From NCBI GenBank assembly GCA_022448955.1, contig JAKVCU010000066.1:1-64000 (forward strand): a DNA stretch of 64,000 nt, given 5' to 3'. The DNA is from Saprospiraceae bacterium (lineage in GTDB: Bacteria; Bacteroidota; Bacteroidia; Chitinophagales; Saprospiraceae). Positions 23,517 through 52,288 of the stretch are shown here, in pieces (the stretch's first letter is position 1; each line of letters begins with the position of its first letter). A program made the position numbers and the translations under genes. Under the pieces are notes generated by a model that had not been told where the DNA came from, ran no database searches, and was given only the letters and a program-made list of their open reading frames with translations.

Positions 23517-23600
23517 TACCGAAGGCGGGAATCGAACCCGCACTCCCTTGCGAGAACTGGATTTTGAATCCAGCGCGTCTACCAATTCCGCCACTTCGGC
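23517..23600 (-). tRNA. tRNA-Leu (anticodon CAA)
   Basis: Minus strand, 84 bases, starting GCCGAAGTGGCGGAATTGGT. It has a class II long variable arm (TTCTCGCAAGGGAGT), an anticodon stem CTGGA/TCCAG with loop TTCAAAA giving anticodon CAA, and the T arm GCGGGTTCGATTCCCGC. The first acceptor pair is G-U (GCCGAAG with CTTCGGT). The CCA end is not encoded, so it must be added enzymatically. Confidence 0.95.
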
Positions 23601-26177: not shown

Positions 26178-26834
26178 ATGAGATTCATTCTTTTTTTAAG
26201 TATTATTGGGCTATTTTCTTTTACTAAGTATGACACCAAACCGCCATTAAAAATGGCTCTTCTTAAATATAATGGTGGCGGTGACTGGTATTCCAACCCT
26301 ACTGCTTTGCCTAATCTAGCCAAGTTTTGTAATCAAACCTTAGGTACCAATTTCGATACAGATTATGCTACAGTTGAAGTAGGAAGCGCAGATTTATTTA
26401 ATTATGCTTTTATACATATGACTGGTCATGGAAATGTGGTTTTTTCCGATTTAGAGGCAGAAAATCTAAGAATGTATTTAGAAGCAGGAGGTTTTTTGCA
26501 TATTGATGATAATTATGGTATGGATGAGTATGTTCGTTTAGCCATGAAAAAGGTGTTTCCTCAGCAAGAATTTATAGAGTTGCCATTTGAGCATCCTATC
26601 TACAAACAATCATTCGAGTTTAAGAATGGACTTCCAAAAATCCATAAGCATGATGATAAAGCAGCACAAGGATTTGGTTTATTCCATGAAGGAAGATTGG
26701 TCGTATTCTATAGTTATGAATGCGACTTAGGAGATGGCTGGGAAGACCAAGATGTACATAACGATAGCCAAGAAGTACGCTTGACAGCACTTCAGATGGG
26801 GGCTAATATCGTGCAATATAACTTTGAACAATAA
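26178..26834 (+). CDS. DUF4159-domain exported protein
   Basis: A 218-residue protein with a short N-terminal hydrophobic export signal (FILFLSIIGLFSFTKY) and a DUF4159 domain: LKYNGGGDWYSNPTALPNLA near residue 35, FNYAFIHMTGHGNVVFSD near residue 78, LRMYLEAGGFLHIDDNYGMD near residue 105 and GFGLFHEGRLVVFYSYECDL near 175. The fold resembles glutamine-amidotransferase-like Rossmann proteins, and DUF4159 genes often neighbour gliding- or MoxR-associated genes. No enzymatic function is established. It follows rsmE by 13 bases and converges on the PspC gene with only two bases between stops. Confidence 0.88.
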   Translation: MRFILFLSIIGLFSFTKYDTKPPLKMALLKYNGGGDWYSNPTALPNLAKFCNQTLGTNFDTDYATVEVGSADLFNYAFIHMTGHGNVVFSDLEAENLRMYLEAGGFLHIDDNYGMDEYVRLAMKKVFPQQEFIELPFEHPIYKQSFEFKNGLPKIHKHDDKAAQGFGLFHEGRLVVFYSYECDLGDGWEDQDVHNDSQEVRLTALQMGANIVQYNFEQ

Positions 26835-26836
26835 GC

Positions 26837-27046
26837 CTATTCCCAGATGATATTCCGTCTGAAATACTTGCGAATATTCAACCAGAATACAACGAATAAA
26901 TAAAATATGATGGGTGAGCCCAGCGCTACGAATGATATATAGATAAAATACAATCGTACTCTGGCTGAGGCGATACCCATTTTTTCACCGAGGTAACTGC
27001 AAACCCCAAATGCTGATCGTTCGAGTAATGATTTAATACTATCCAT
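26837..27046 (-). CDS. PspC-domain small membrane protein
   Basis: A 69-residue protein with the PspC pattern: LLERSAFGVCSYLGEKMGI (where the family has a G-V-C/A-G-L-a-xx-g-i segment), then a membrane helix YFIYISFVALGSPIIFYLFV. PspC-type proteins act in membrane-stress responses or as small anti-regulators. I chose the ATG at 27044-27046; an upstream in-frame ATG would add 16 residues unlike the family. It converges with the DUF4159 gene, with two bases separating the stops. Confidence 0.85.
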   Translation of the reverse strand: MDSIKSLLERSAFGVCSYLGEKMGIASARVRLYFIYISFVALGSPIIFYLFVVFWLNIRKYFRRNIIWE

Positions 27047-27207
27047 AGTCAATAATTTAATCCATTTGTTCAAGCTTAACAAATAAATGACCAAATTGAT
27101 TAAACATTTTCAAGAAAATGGTCAAACTTTTATAAAATTGTTAGTAAATGTATAAGAATTTGTTCTTTTAGCCGATTTTATACAACATTAGTTGCGTACT
27201 GATATAC

Positions 27208-27297
27208 CCCTATAGCCATAGGGATATTGGTAAGGCCAATACATAAATTCCAACATACTTGGTTGATGGTTCATTTTTTCAGATACCACCATCAACC
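27208..27297. other. Left part of the hairpin-rich tract (three hairpins)
   Basis: CCCTAT/ATAGGG (27208-27223, loop AGCC), ATTGG/CCAAT (27226-27240) and GGTTGATGGT/ACCATCAACC (27261-27270 with 27288-27297). The last lies just downstream of the tiny membrane gene and could end its transcript, although no T-run follows it. Confidence 0.6.
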
Positions 27298-27313
27298 ATA
27301 AGACTGATCTAGC

Positions 27314-27529
27314 CTATTGTAAGGCCAACACGCTATTATCAGCATCAGCTTGGGGTGTCGCGTAACTCAACTGAACAATTTGATCTTCTAATTTTTTACT
27401 GGCGTCTTCAGTTGGCGTATTAAATACATAGTAAATACCAAATGCTCCAACAAAGAATAAAACGACTAATAAGATAGTTTCTACAGATTTGTTGTTTTGA
27501 CGAACGTTGGTGTTAGTTGAATTTTTCAT
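27314..27529 (-). CDS. Tiny single-pass membrane protein, unknown
   Basis: A protein of about 71 residues: a polar N-terminus (MKNSTNTNVRQNNKSVE), one membrane segment (TILLVVLFFVGAFGIYYVF) and an acidic, alanine-rich tail. I do not recognise a family. The ATG at 27527-27529 is preferred over one 17 codons upstream because the membrane segment and polar head suffice and the upstream part overlaps a hairpin-rich tract. The gene is embedded in that tract, which continues on both sides, and its expression may depend on those structures. Confidence 0.5.
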   Translation of the reverse strand: MKNSTNTNVRQNNKSVETILLVVLFFVGAFGIYYVFNTPTEDASKKLEDQIVQLSYATPQADADNSVLALQ

Positions 27530-28546
27530 TAGGAATACATTTAATTGGTTAAAAATTTTAATTGGCTTAGTAGCGGGCATAGCTCCGCCCTATCTTCCGA
27601 AGGCCTTTTGAACCCGGAAGAATAATGTTGATACACTAAGCAGCGCTTAGTGATTTTAGGCTTGAAAAAAAGACTGGCCAGTTGCTATTGTGCCTACAAT
27701 AGCAGATTTTACTGCGAAAATGAGCAGTATGGACATAGCATGCCCTTTAGGCAATTGGTCAATTGCCAGCAAACTTGTTAAGTCAAAAGACACGAGTGAC
27801 TATTGTTATCCTATACACGTAGGATAAACACAACAAAAAGGATTGGCTGCTACAAAGCTTTACCACTGCCAGCCGGCAGATTCGCTTAATAGGATATCTA
27901 GTACGGAAAGGCAAAACGCTAGGCTTGTATAATAGGATTTTACATGATCGATAGATCAAGACATCCCTGAAGCCATAAAGTCATTATCTTTTAACAAAAA
28001 GATCGACTTTCATTGCATGTGCTTTCAGCAAAGAAACTGATTACCAATACCTTATTGTAATCAACAGTTGTTTATATGTGATGATAAAACACTAGGGAGG
28101 CTCCCCTAGTGGAAATGTGAGTAAATTTTTTTTCATATTTAGTGTTCACTTTAACTCCTATGGGCTATGCCTAAGGAATATTAAATAATGTAAGAGAAAT
28201 ACTAGGTTAAGACGGTTTTGTTACCCGATAGCTATTCGGGAAAACCATTTCTATATAGTATATACTGTCCAGCAGTAGATACCATATGGAAAACAAAGTC
28301 CAGCTTATTAAAAGACCTTGCTATCTTTTTAAGTAATTTTGATAAATATGTACAATAATTTGCCTCTCGGAGCAGGCGCTCCTTAATTTATGCTCTCATG
28401 ATTTTGTAACTATTGGGAAAGTTCCACTGGTATGAATGTTTTACAAAGCAAATATATATGTTATATTTATAATATGAAAGTTTTCTAACAATTATTTTTC
28501 GTAAAAAAAAGTTAATTGTCGTACAGCCAGATTCATAAACATAAAT
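27530..28546. other. Hairpin-rich non-coding tract, about 1 kb
   Basis: No credible protein gene. The segment holds an unusual series of short perfect stems: GCGG/CCGC (27573-27588), CTTCCG/CGGAAG (27594-27620), CACTAAG/CTTAGTG (27634-27652), GCTATTGT/ACAATAGC (27684-27703), ACTGC/GCAGT (27711-27728), GGCAATT/AATTGCC (27750-27767), AGTCA/TGACT (27781-27801), TTATCCTA/TAGGATAA (27806-27827), CTGCC/GGCAG (27866-27879), TGATC/GATCA (27945-27958), GATTAC/GTAATC within AACTG/CAGTT (28035-28069), CACTAGGG/CCCTAGTG (28090-28111), GGTTTT/AAAACC enclosing CCCGA/TCGGG (28214-28246) and GGAGC/GCTCC (28369-28382). Most lack T-runs, so they are not ordinary terminators. A large structured RNA or a long leader are possible readings. 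Confidence 0.6.
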
Positions 28547-29716
28547 TTATTTTTTAATATATACACCACAGCCTTCTTTTCGCTTAGGCATAAGTATCCA
28601 TAACTGGCCATAATGGTGGATTTTTTCTGCCTTTTGTTGAGCTTTTTGGCCTACACCTTGGTACCAATCGATGTGCCCAGGCCCTTTGATTGCACCACCT
28701 ACATCCTGAGCTAGAAGAATATGAAAATCATGCCGAAGAACTCGATCAAGTGAGTCATCAAAAATAGGCACAGCAGCTAACAAACAGCTACCAAGTGGAA
28801 TATGCTTTTTGTCTACTGCGATGGAAATTTGTTGTTGGAGGGCAGCCCCAGCTGCACCTGATGGTAAATCATGTTTAGGCTTGAAAAAAATGTAGGAAGG
28901 GTTATGGAAAAGCAGGGTATCTTGAAATTGAGGATAACGGTCTAGGAAGGCTTTAATACCATTAATAGAGATGGAGCTAATCCCAAAATCAGGTCGATTT
29001 AGAGCAAAGGTTTCAATACTTTTGTAGGGGTGCCTATTGCTACCATCATAAGCTAATAATTGCATCTTTCCAGAAGGAAATTGAACGTAGCCAGATCCTT
29101 GTAACTGCATATAATAAATATCAACGGGATTAGTAGCATAAGCAATTTCTAGTGCTTGGTCTTTTAACTTACCTGCTCCATCAATCTCAGCTCTGGATGG
29201 CAAACGACCTACCCAATTTTTCGGCCGTCGATAAATAGGATATAGATAATCTTGATTGGCGTGCTCATTAACGTTAATGATCGGAGTATAATAAGCCGTA
29301 AATTTAACCGCTCCTCTCCTATCATCGCCCCAAATTTGGTAAGCAACCAAATCATCCTCAATATTGCTTGGAAATCCGTATTGGTAAGATTGTAGAATTT
29401 TTATAGTTTCTTTGAAGTCATTCTTTGTGTACTGCTGTCCGCCATAACTTCTATATACTAGCCTACTGTTGTCGATAACTTCCATTTGTTCATTTAGCGA
29501 AGCAGCCAAGCGTGGATGAATAAAAGGGAAATCAACAGAATCTAGTGAATATGGAGAGAATTTTTCGGAAAGGATAGGCGCGTTTTTCAGTTTGCCATTT
29601 CGAAATAATCTAAGAGATGGATCTTGTTGGATGGGGAAGTGACCTTGTTTTTGTGATTGGAACTGACAACTAAAAACAAAGCCCAACAATAATAAGGTGA
29701 TGTAAGGTTTATTCAT
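28547..29716 (-). CDS. mltA: Membrane-bound lytic murein transglycosylase A (lipoprotein)
   Basis: A 389-residue lipoprotein (lipobox LLLGFVFSC, Cys near residue 17) that cleaves peptidoglycan glycan strands with 1,6-anhydro ring formation. The MltA domain spans about residues 105-280: FTAYYTPIINVNEH, YPIYRRPKNWV, LPSRAEIDGAG and DIYYMQLQGSGYVQFP. The C-terminal 3D domain carries the catalytic-type Asp residues in FHILLAQDVGGAIKGPGHID, with WYQGVGQKAQQKAEK and GQLWILMPK. Length fits the family. It stands at the 3' end of a minus-strand series of envelope and secreted genes. Confidence 0.92.
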   Translation of the reverse strand: MNKPYITLLLLGFVFSCQFQSQKQGHFPIQQDPSLRLFRNGKLKNAPILSEKFSPYSLDSVDFPFIHPRLAASLNEQMEVIDNSRLVYRSYGGQQYTKNDFKETIKILQSYQYGFPSNIEDDLVAYQIWGDDRRGAVKFTAYYTPIINVNEHANQDYLYPIYRRPKNWVGRLPSRAEIDGAGKLKDQALEIAYATNPVDIYYMQLQGSGYVQFPSGKMQLLAYDGSNRHPYKSIETFALNRPDFGISSISINGIKAFLDRYPQFQDTLLFHNPSYIFFKPKHDLPSGAAGAALQQQISIAVDKKHIPLGSCLLAAVPIFDDSLDRVLRHDFHILLAQDVGGAIKGPGHIDWYQGVGQKAQQKAEKIHHYGQLWILMPKRKEGCGVYIKK

Positions 29717-51799: not shown

Positions 51800-52288
51800 T
51801 ACATTTTGCACTGATATAATCTAGGTTTTGAATGGAGAGATATTTTCTCCATTGTAGTGAGCAAGCAATAATCGGAATAGAGGAGAATAGCTGCTTCAAG
51901 AAGCAGGCTTTGCCGACGAAAGGTTTTCAGAAATCAAAAAATATTTTGAGGCGTACCTAAAAAAATATTGTATTTTTTATTATGTGATGAAAATTTATGT
52001 TGTATTTTTTCGTTATTTAAGAAGAAGTAAAAATAAATAGATCATTCATTTTACTTTATGCTTTACTACTAAGCAGCTAGTCAAAATTGCTTGTATGATA
52101 AAATTGTCCCTTCGAAAATCATAAGAAACTGACGATACGAAAGTTATGCATGATTTTTAAAAGGGTCTTAAAACCTACAGGTAGAAACGGTTTCGGGCAA
52201 ACTACTTACGTTTTTATTTTTTATGTAAAAACATACGAAAAAAGAATTGATAGAAATACATTATTTTTTGATTAACGACTAAGCCTAC
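51800..52288. other. Gene-free stretch with dispersed repeat copy 2
   Basis: About 490 bases without a credible gene. The middle and right hold family A copy 2 (52070-52208). The 3' end of the sigma/anti-sigma transcript should be in the left part, but no strong terminator hairpin was found. Confidence 0.55.
52070..52208 (+). repeat. Dispersed miniature element family A, copy 2 (full length)
   Basis: Begins TAAGCAGCTAGTCAAAATT and GCTTGTATGATAAAATT, has the 43-base hairpin core at 52115-52157 (AAAATCAT / ATGATTTT arms around AACTGACGATACGAAAGTT) and ends GTTTCGGGCAAACTACTTA. It is the most regular copy and a good reference for aligning the others. Confidence 0.78.

Follow-up and report, generated by a model that had tools for sequence, protein, structure and literature searches.

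A hairpin-rich tract ahead of a tiny membrane protein gene in Saprospiraceae resembles a long structured leader RNA

Why should the DNA ahead of a gene for a 71-residue membrane protein be packed with short perfect hairpins? The tract that raises this question (positions 27200-28385) lies in a 64,000-nucleotide stretch of a Saprospiraceae genome, referred to here as the window; this genome is G000, and other G and L labels denote relatives' genomes and fetched loci. A preliminary description of the window offered three readings of the tract, namely a large structured RNA, a very long leader of the tiny membrane gene, or a hairpin array of mobile origin. On the minus strand an MltA-type transglycosylase gene is followed by the tract, the tiny membrane gene and a PspC-like gene:

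28547-29716, minus strand: MltA-type murein transglycosylase gene, upstream of the leader (domain matches)
28449-28456, minus strand: TATATTTG, Bacteroidota -7 promoter box (consensus TAnnTTTG, as given in the excerpted text of PMC7366714)
27530-28443, minus strand: putative 5' leader of the tiny membrane gene (position; fold z -5.3; same-place leaders in relatives)
27314-27529, minus strand: gene for the tiny membrane protein of 71 aa, which has a single hydrophobic stretch (judged from the sequence, without a predictor)
26837-27046, minus strand: PspC-like gene, downstream (scores slightly below the Pfam cut-off)

The box TATATTTG is situated 90 nt past the MltA stop and is the sole strict match on the minus strand between the MltA gene and the tiny gene to TAnnTTTG, which the excerpts of PMC7366714 give as the -7 element of Bacteroidota promoters. 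Its position defines the start that we assign to the leader. The start of the tiny gene is set at 27529 and not at 27580 because the congener G001 has an in-frame stop between the two. No Pfam-supported gene lies between the MltA gene and the tiny gene; open reading frames there, on both strands, are 43-58 aa long, and the first ATG of the leader opens a 3-codon frame. The PspC-like protein, just under the Pfam cut-off, is far under the NCBIfam equivalog cut-off. From the evidence set out below, we consider it probable that the tract is a long structured 5' leader (~0.9 kb, minus strand) of the gene for this tiny single-span membrane protein, with a presumed TAnnTTTG promoter at 28449-28456 and the PspC-like gene downstream; its fold would limit expression, perhaps via premature termination. 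Position, promoter box, a conserved place and strand-specific structure over many relatives all speak for the proposal of a very long leader. The proposal of a large structured RNA is compatible with it, because leader and RNA would form one transcript.

The density of hairpins is confirmed by computation. Counting perfect Watson-Crick stems with loops of 3-8, the tract contains 10 of at least 6 bp against a shuffle mean of 2.18, 6 of at least 7 bp against 0.65 expected, and 4 of at least 8 bp against 0.18; none of 500 dinucleotide shuffles matched any of these three counts, which answers the concern that shuffled sequence might yield as many stems. The tract also ranks first for hairpin density within its own genome, with 6 hairpins against at most 4 in any window outside it, among 1789 overlapping 840-nt windows covering 390,386 bases (20 stretches plus the 64-kb window). 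The long stems are all perfectly Watson-Crick and all different in sequence. The stem scan gave, besides the hairpin near 28090 treated below:

28310-28329, unstranded: perfect hairpin, 6 bp, loop 8
27986-28003, unstranded: perfect hairpin, 7 bp, loop 4, A+T-rich
27806-27827, unstranded: perfect hairpin, 8 bp, loop 6
27750-27767, unstranded: perfect hairpin, 7 bp, loop 4
27710-27729, unstranded: perfect hairpin, 6 bp, loop 8
27683-27704, unstranded: perfect hairpin, 9 bp, loop 4
27634-27652, unstranded: perfect hairpin, 8 bp, loop 3

The five hairpins singled out in the preliminary description (27634, 27684, 27750, 27806 and 28090) are thus all present, though the sizes given for two need correcting, since one loop is of 3 and one stem of 9. 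The tiny gene does lie in the tract, but the long stems do not surround it: those of at least 7 bp are confined to 27634-28111, upstream of the gene, and the piece 27235-27634 that contains the gene has no stem of at least 6 bp.

Folding the region gave z-scores of -6.8 on the plus and -5.1 on the minus strand for 27560-28400 (20 shuffles each), and of -5.3 on the minus and -5.0 on the plus strand for 27530-28440 (60 shuffles). Stable folds are not unique to the tract within this genome. Its intergenic DNA, sampled as 72 pieces of 350-400 nt with those of the tract among them, has a median fold z of -1.4, and eight pieces, one of them a tie, are at or above the best tract piece (z -4.1). Of three of these eight that were inspected, the first (L064:355) is a dispersed palindromic repeat, the second (L064:19479) a single long hairpin, and the third (L076:16202) has two hairpins of the 10-bp class.

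A mobile origin for the hairpins, as a REP, MITE or attC-like array, would account for a row of hairpins between genes, and by eye there are dispersed palindromic repeats elsewhere in the genome. However, the tract contains only one repeat, of 13 nt in two copies, has no other match in its own genome at E<=0.001 among scored candidates and none to phages or plasmids, and relatives have leaders at the same place. The array reading is largely refuted, and we regard it as the least credible of the alternatives. As for the repeats elsewhere in the genome, they are imperfect, intergenic and MITE- or REP-like by eye, with the form AATTGGTATAATAAAA ... TTTTATTATACAAGCAATTTT around variable inner hairpins (L074:4401-4800, L068:12052-12451, L064:355-720 and window 51800-52199).

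The large-RNA search called for in the preliminary description (RNase P, tmRNA, OLE, GOLLD, ROOL) found no family at its cut-off in the tract. Scanned with Rfam 15, which includes OLE, GOLLD, ROOL and others, the whole window contains one tRNA only (23517-23600); a relaxed threshold gave five matches in 26800-28700, all below gathering scores, and 20 relatives' loci gave no match at cut-off. Identification of the tract with tmRNA or RNase P RNA was rejected, both having been found over their cut-offs elsewhere (C1:95109-95487 and C199:41629-42090, respectively). The size and fold stability of the tract, and a terminator-like hairpin within it, would suit an independent noncoding RNA that acts in trans and has the tiny gene merely downstream. 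Against this stand the lack of an Rfam match, the lack of a second TAnnTTTG before the tiny gene in G000 and of any in the examined part of the G001 leader, and the fact that the leader precedes a homologous gene in many genomes; we find such an RNA improbable. OLE, GOLLD and ROOL, going by the excerpts of their descriptions, are like the tract in size and structure density, but the tract has no Rfam match at cut-offs and is apparently part of a gene's leader.

DNA similarity searches with the tract gave matches in 3 of 60 genomes, and in 24 of 398 at E<=0.01, the genome itself being included in both counts. The matches in other genomes were rejected as homologues: they are 21-52 nt long, the two inspected fall inside open reading frames of 145 and 384 aa, and the others were taken as chance. 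The sole other genome of the genus compared, G001 (JALEHC010000036, Saprospiraceae bacterium HH_bin16), has a homologue of the tiny gene with 63% identity. The 623 nt upstream of it, to the contig end, contain 4 stems of at least 7 bp against 0.20 expected (0 of 1000 shuffles; z -4.0), and a span of 566 nt gives 4 against 0.13 (0 of 500 shuffles). Local BLAST aligns the two leaders over 79 columns at 70% around the 28090 hairpin and over 57 columns at 75% in a block that begins at the motif hairpin GGGCGGAGCTATGCCC and ends close to the start codon; two further short matches are weak, and the remainder does not align. The hairpins and the block at the 28090 site, and both motif copies in the tract, are:

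28068-28156, minus strand: block alignable with G001 (L053:156-232), AGTGAACAC ... TTTCC plus hairpin (local alignment)
28086-28111, minus strand: perfect hairpin, 8 bp, loop 6, with TTTT after it, resembling a terminator on the leader strand (terminator scan)
27731-27745, minus strand: GGGCATGCTATGTCC, the motif that recurs in the leaders, second copy
27575-27590, minus strand: GGGCGGAGCTATGCCC, recurring leader hairpin close upstream of the start codon, with a homologous copy in G001

The hairpin that follows TTTCC occupies the same position in G000 and G001 with a changed stem, and a T run comes after both; the G001 counterpart of the 28086-28111 hairpin is a 6-bp hairpin followed by ATTTTTT, so that both leaders hold a terminator-like hairpin with a T run at a matching place. 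With a hairpin excess at the same place and two alignable blocks, it is position and foldedness that are conserved between the congeners, while most of the sequence is not. On whether relatives lack the stems at this position, the answer is divided. The one congener has them, and the same-place leaders of distant relatives are, as a group, more structured than other intergenic DNA, but taken singly L080, G123 and G205 have perfect stems at or little above the expected number.

To look beyond the genus we made use of the PspC match, by which the locus can be recognised in 217 of 298 genomes, and fetched the region upstream of PspC for 40 loci. In 19 of these, PspC is preceded by a membrane gene that looks homologous, either tiny (55-85 aa) or longer (141-185 aa); in the other 21 a different gene, or none that was recognised, stands there. 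Seventeen of the 19 were used, with a gap of 414-974 nt between the membrane gene and the preceding gene; L124, which reaches a contig end, and L125 also carry the gene and were not entered. Together with G000, G001, L080, G123, G205, G356, G121 and G250 they make up 25 Saprospiraceae leaders, which are noncoding and 344-1094 nt long (median 698 without G001), those of G123 and G205 being measured from the -7 box rather than from the preceding gene. L127, L131 and G356 are near-identical; counts were repeated with only one of the three, and also with a single leader for each genus, L122, L128 and L150 counting as one genus. An extended set that adds L125, L169, L089 and L092 gave like results. 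In genus g83 (L130, L137, L141 and L147), a 193-aa sigma-factor-like protein, read by eye, takes the place of the membrane gene before PspC; these loci were rejected as membrane-gene leaders and left out of the 25-leader statistics, and the trends are the same in the 29-leader set.

Homology of the membrane genes is judged from a short motif, position and HMM scores that are weak for most. From the sixth on, matches to the tiny-gene profile are mostly weak (E from 1e-7 to 1e-3), and several correspond to ends of longer proteins. The longer proteins of 141-185 aa at the tiny-gene place have a similar membrane segment. All four that were scanned (L111, L122, L143 and L150) have a PKD-like domain, which is over the Pfam cut-off in L150 only. 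These proteins bear on a further alternative. In type I toxin-antitoxin modules the toxin is a small hydrophobic protein whose mRNA has a long folded leader and is repressed by an antisense RNA. The locus, known here from sequence alone, has a likeness to such a unit in that its long structured leader precedes the gene for a small protein with a single hydrophobic stretch, the tiny protein then being the toxin. It differs in that several relatives have at this place a larger protein with a like membrane segment, and a search with the tiny-gene profile gives a single match in the genome; a toxin-antitoxin unit is accordingly very unlikely, though marginally less so than the mobile array.

Across the 25 leaders, structure is in computed excess: 41 perfect stems of at least 7 bp are present against 8.1 expected (maximum 18 in 60 shuffles), and the median whole-leader fold z is -3.34. 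Leaders of other genera, taken as 33 pieces, have a median z of -2.62 and 25 stems against 6.8, while 31 other intergenic pieces from 20 relatives have a median z of -1.38 and 14 stems against 7.3 (p=0.010 versus leaders). Stems of at least 7 bp occur at 7.5 per kb in this genus, ~1.9 in the other leaders and 1.2 in control DNA. Relatives' leaders are thus moderately more structured than their other intergenic DNA, and this genus is exceptional. Some leaders have little structure (L111, L140 and G205, z -0.8 to -0.2).

Stems that contain a G-U pair form on one strand only. In the 25 leaders, G-U-containing stems of at least 7 bp number 55 on the sense strand against 24.4 expected (range 14-35), and 42 on the antisense strand against 36.4 (range 23-48). 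Taking one leader per genus (15) gives 35 against 17.7 (10-27) sense and 26 against 23.3 (14-34) antisense. An excess on the gene's strand only points to RNA and not to DNA, and this bias is the best evidence of RNA-level selection in the leader group. The group therefore shows structure selected on the gene's strand, which is not visible in G000 alone, where G-U stems number 0 sense and 1 antisense and both strands fold equally well. In genus g120 a consensus fold, from an alignment of three closely related sequences only, has 5 of 195 pairs changed on both sides, a number reached in 8 of 500 shuffles; two of the five are in the motif hairpin.

The main rival explanation for the exceptional hairpin density in this genus accepts that the leader is real and holds that the perfect hairpins are functionless by-products of replication, which would perfect quasi-palindromes in freely varying DNA. 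Such an origin would explain why the long stems are perfectly Watson-Crick, all different and equally stable on both G000 strands, why the exceptional density is found in this genus only, and why this genome's intergenic DNA is generally structured. It does not account for the G-U stem excess across genera on the gene's strand only, the paired changes within g120, or the 28090 and 27575 hairpins holding their position in the congener, and no other sampled stretch of the genome equals the density of the tract. We consider this origin unlikely, if the most serious of the alternatives.

The leaders also share sequence elements, identified computationally. TATGYC, first found in a 26-leader set that included the four g83 loci, has 42 sense-strand copies in the 25 leaders where 9.7 are expected (maximum 16 of 60 shuffles), and 12 antisense copies against 7.6 (maximum 14); with one leader per genus the figures are 19 against 5.7 sense and 6 against 4.5 antisense. 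This amounts to 2.4 per kb sense, 0.7 antisense and 0.39 in control DNA. The sense-strand motif sometimes lies within a GGGCGAGCUAUGCCC hairpin, and the pattern GGGCN1-4GCTATGYCC has 7 copies in 5 of the 25 leaders and 0 on the opposite strand. A coding frame through the TATGCC repeats of the g21 leaders, read by eye only, was dropped. A search of 150 genomes for the exact 15-mer GGGCGAGCTATGYCC gave 7 copies, in 4 genomes, and 2 of the reversed pattern. Three of the 7 copies are in these leaders, and 4 sit 43-94 nt before the presumed start codons of unrelated genes on the same strand (L151, L152, L155 and L157), including, in G068, the gene for a 39-aa peptide that carries a GG motif; in L151 an open frame also crosses the motif. 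The second motif place in G068 (L157) was dropped as a candidate hairpin-rich leader (z -1.6, one stem of at least 6 bp).

Of 22 leaders, 13 have TAnnTTTG near their starts, at 20-330 nt from the beginning of the gap, where 4.4 would be expected (maximum 10 of 200 shuffles). In G205 (L083 / L170) the first stretch of the leader, GAAACCCTTTT, together with a promoter-like sequence is by eye apparently repeated just before the tiny gene. The sigma-54 promoter consensus has TGGCAC-N-TTGC elements at -24/-12. A relaxed sigma-54-like site, TGGCAYN4-5TTTG, is present near the leader start in 14 of 22 leaders, or 8 of 14 with one per genus (shuffle mean 0.11 in the earlier 26-leader set). In the first 330 nt of the gap it occurs in L112, L113, L117, L127, L131, L134, L136, L139, L140, L143, L145, L162, L163 and L097. 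It was not found in the G000 leader, though this genome has a sigma-54 gene (Sigma54_DBD). The PspC-like gene after a tiny membrane gene, and the sigma-54-like site near the leader start in several relatives, recall the Psp (phage-shock) locus; unlike that locus, the PspC match here is below the Pfam and NCBIfam equivalog cut-offs, and G000 showed no such site.

How might a leader of this kind act? We envisage transcription from the TAnnTTTG box at 28449-28456 on the minus strand, running as a single transcript into the tiny gene. The leader RNA would fold during its synthesis and hold down production of the membrane protein, in part perhaps through the GGGCGGAGCUAUGCCC hairpin close to the start codon, until some signal relieved the block. 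Foldedness would matter and the exact sequence of a hairpin little, so the hairpins could turn over quickly. Premature termination may take part at the hairpin and U-run of 28111-28086. Attenuation is weakly suggested: on the sense strand of 29 loci there are 7 terminator-like sites against 3.35 expected (maximum 6 of 20 shuffles), the four g83 loci among the 29 having none. With the terminator scan this near chance, attenuation was dropped as a family-wide mechanism.

Short frames are present in some of the leaders. A 26-aa frame near the leader 5' end in g120 (L127, L131 and L163) looks translated, its differences by codon position being 0, 4 and 12 (three pairs summed). It is conserved, contains Cys and lies ~190-270 nt into the leader (MQNPYKPGAGCLGNYCPKGCTAPSPP in L127). 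In three genomes of g21, a 35-aa frame of equal length has differences over all codon positions, and several other genera have differing short frames starting ATGCA at a similar place in the leader.

Long structured leaders are known in other Bacteroidota. As far as the excerpted reports describe them, Flavobacterium psychrophilum has structured 5' leaders and a median 5' UTR of 24 nt (PMC9723704), and Bacteroides thetaiotaomicron has long 5' UTRs with short ORFs and a median of 32 nt (PMC7366714). Those leaders are, like the present ones, long and structured, in part with leader peptides and proposed attenuation (PMC9723704, PMC7366714), but here a leader of 0.3-1.1 kb in another family stands before a tiny membrane gene without a known pathway. 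Related bacteria share the layout, which has the look of an undescribed regulatory RNA. Our literature search found no report of such a leader, and an earlier description may exist elsewhere.

A broader proposal, tentative and well short of the leader reading itself in likelihood, is that these leaders form a new class of long Saprospiraceae regulatory RNA, 0.3-1.1 kb in length, with rapidly renewed hairpins, TATGYC and a GGGCGAGCUAUGYCC hairpin. Such a class would be selected for foldedness rather than sequence and would control the tiny membrane protein and its PspC-like neighbor, its motif also being used 43-94 nt before unrelated genes. The leader family is ~20-30 times longer than the median 5' UTRs in the excerpted accounts of the two mapped Bacteroidota species (32 and 24 nt; PMC7366714, PMC9723704). 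If the leader reading is true, structure kept without sequence would make this a regulatory RNA that is hard to see for homology-based RNA catalogs, and the Saprospiraceae leaders would offer a test case for the evolution of folded RNA without conserved sequence.
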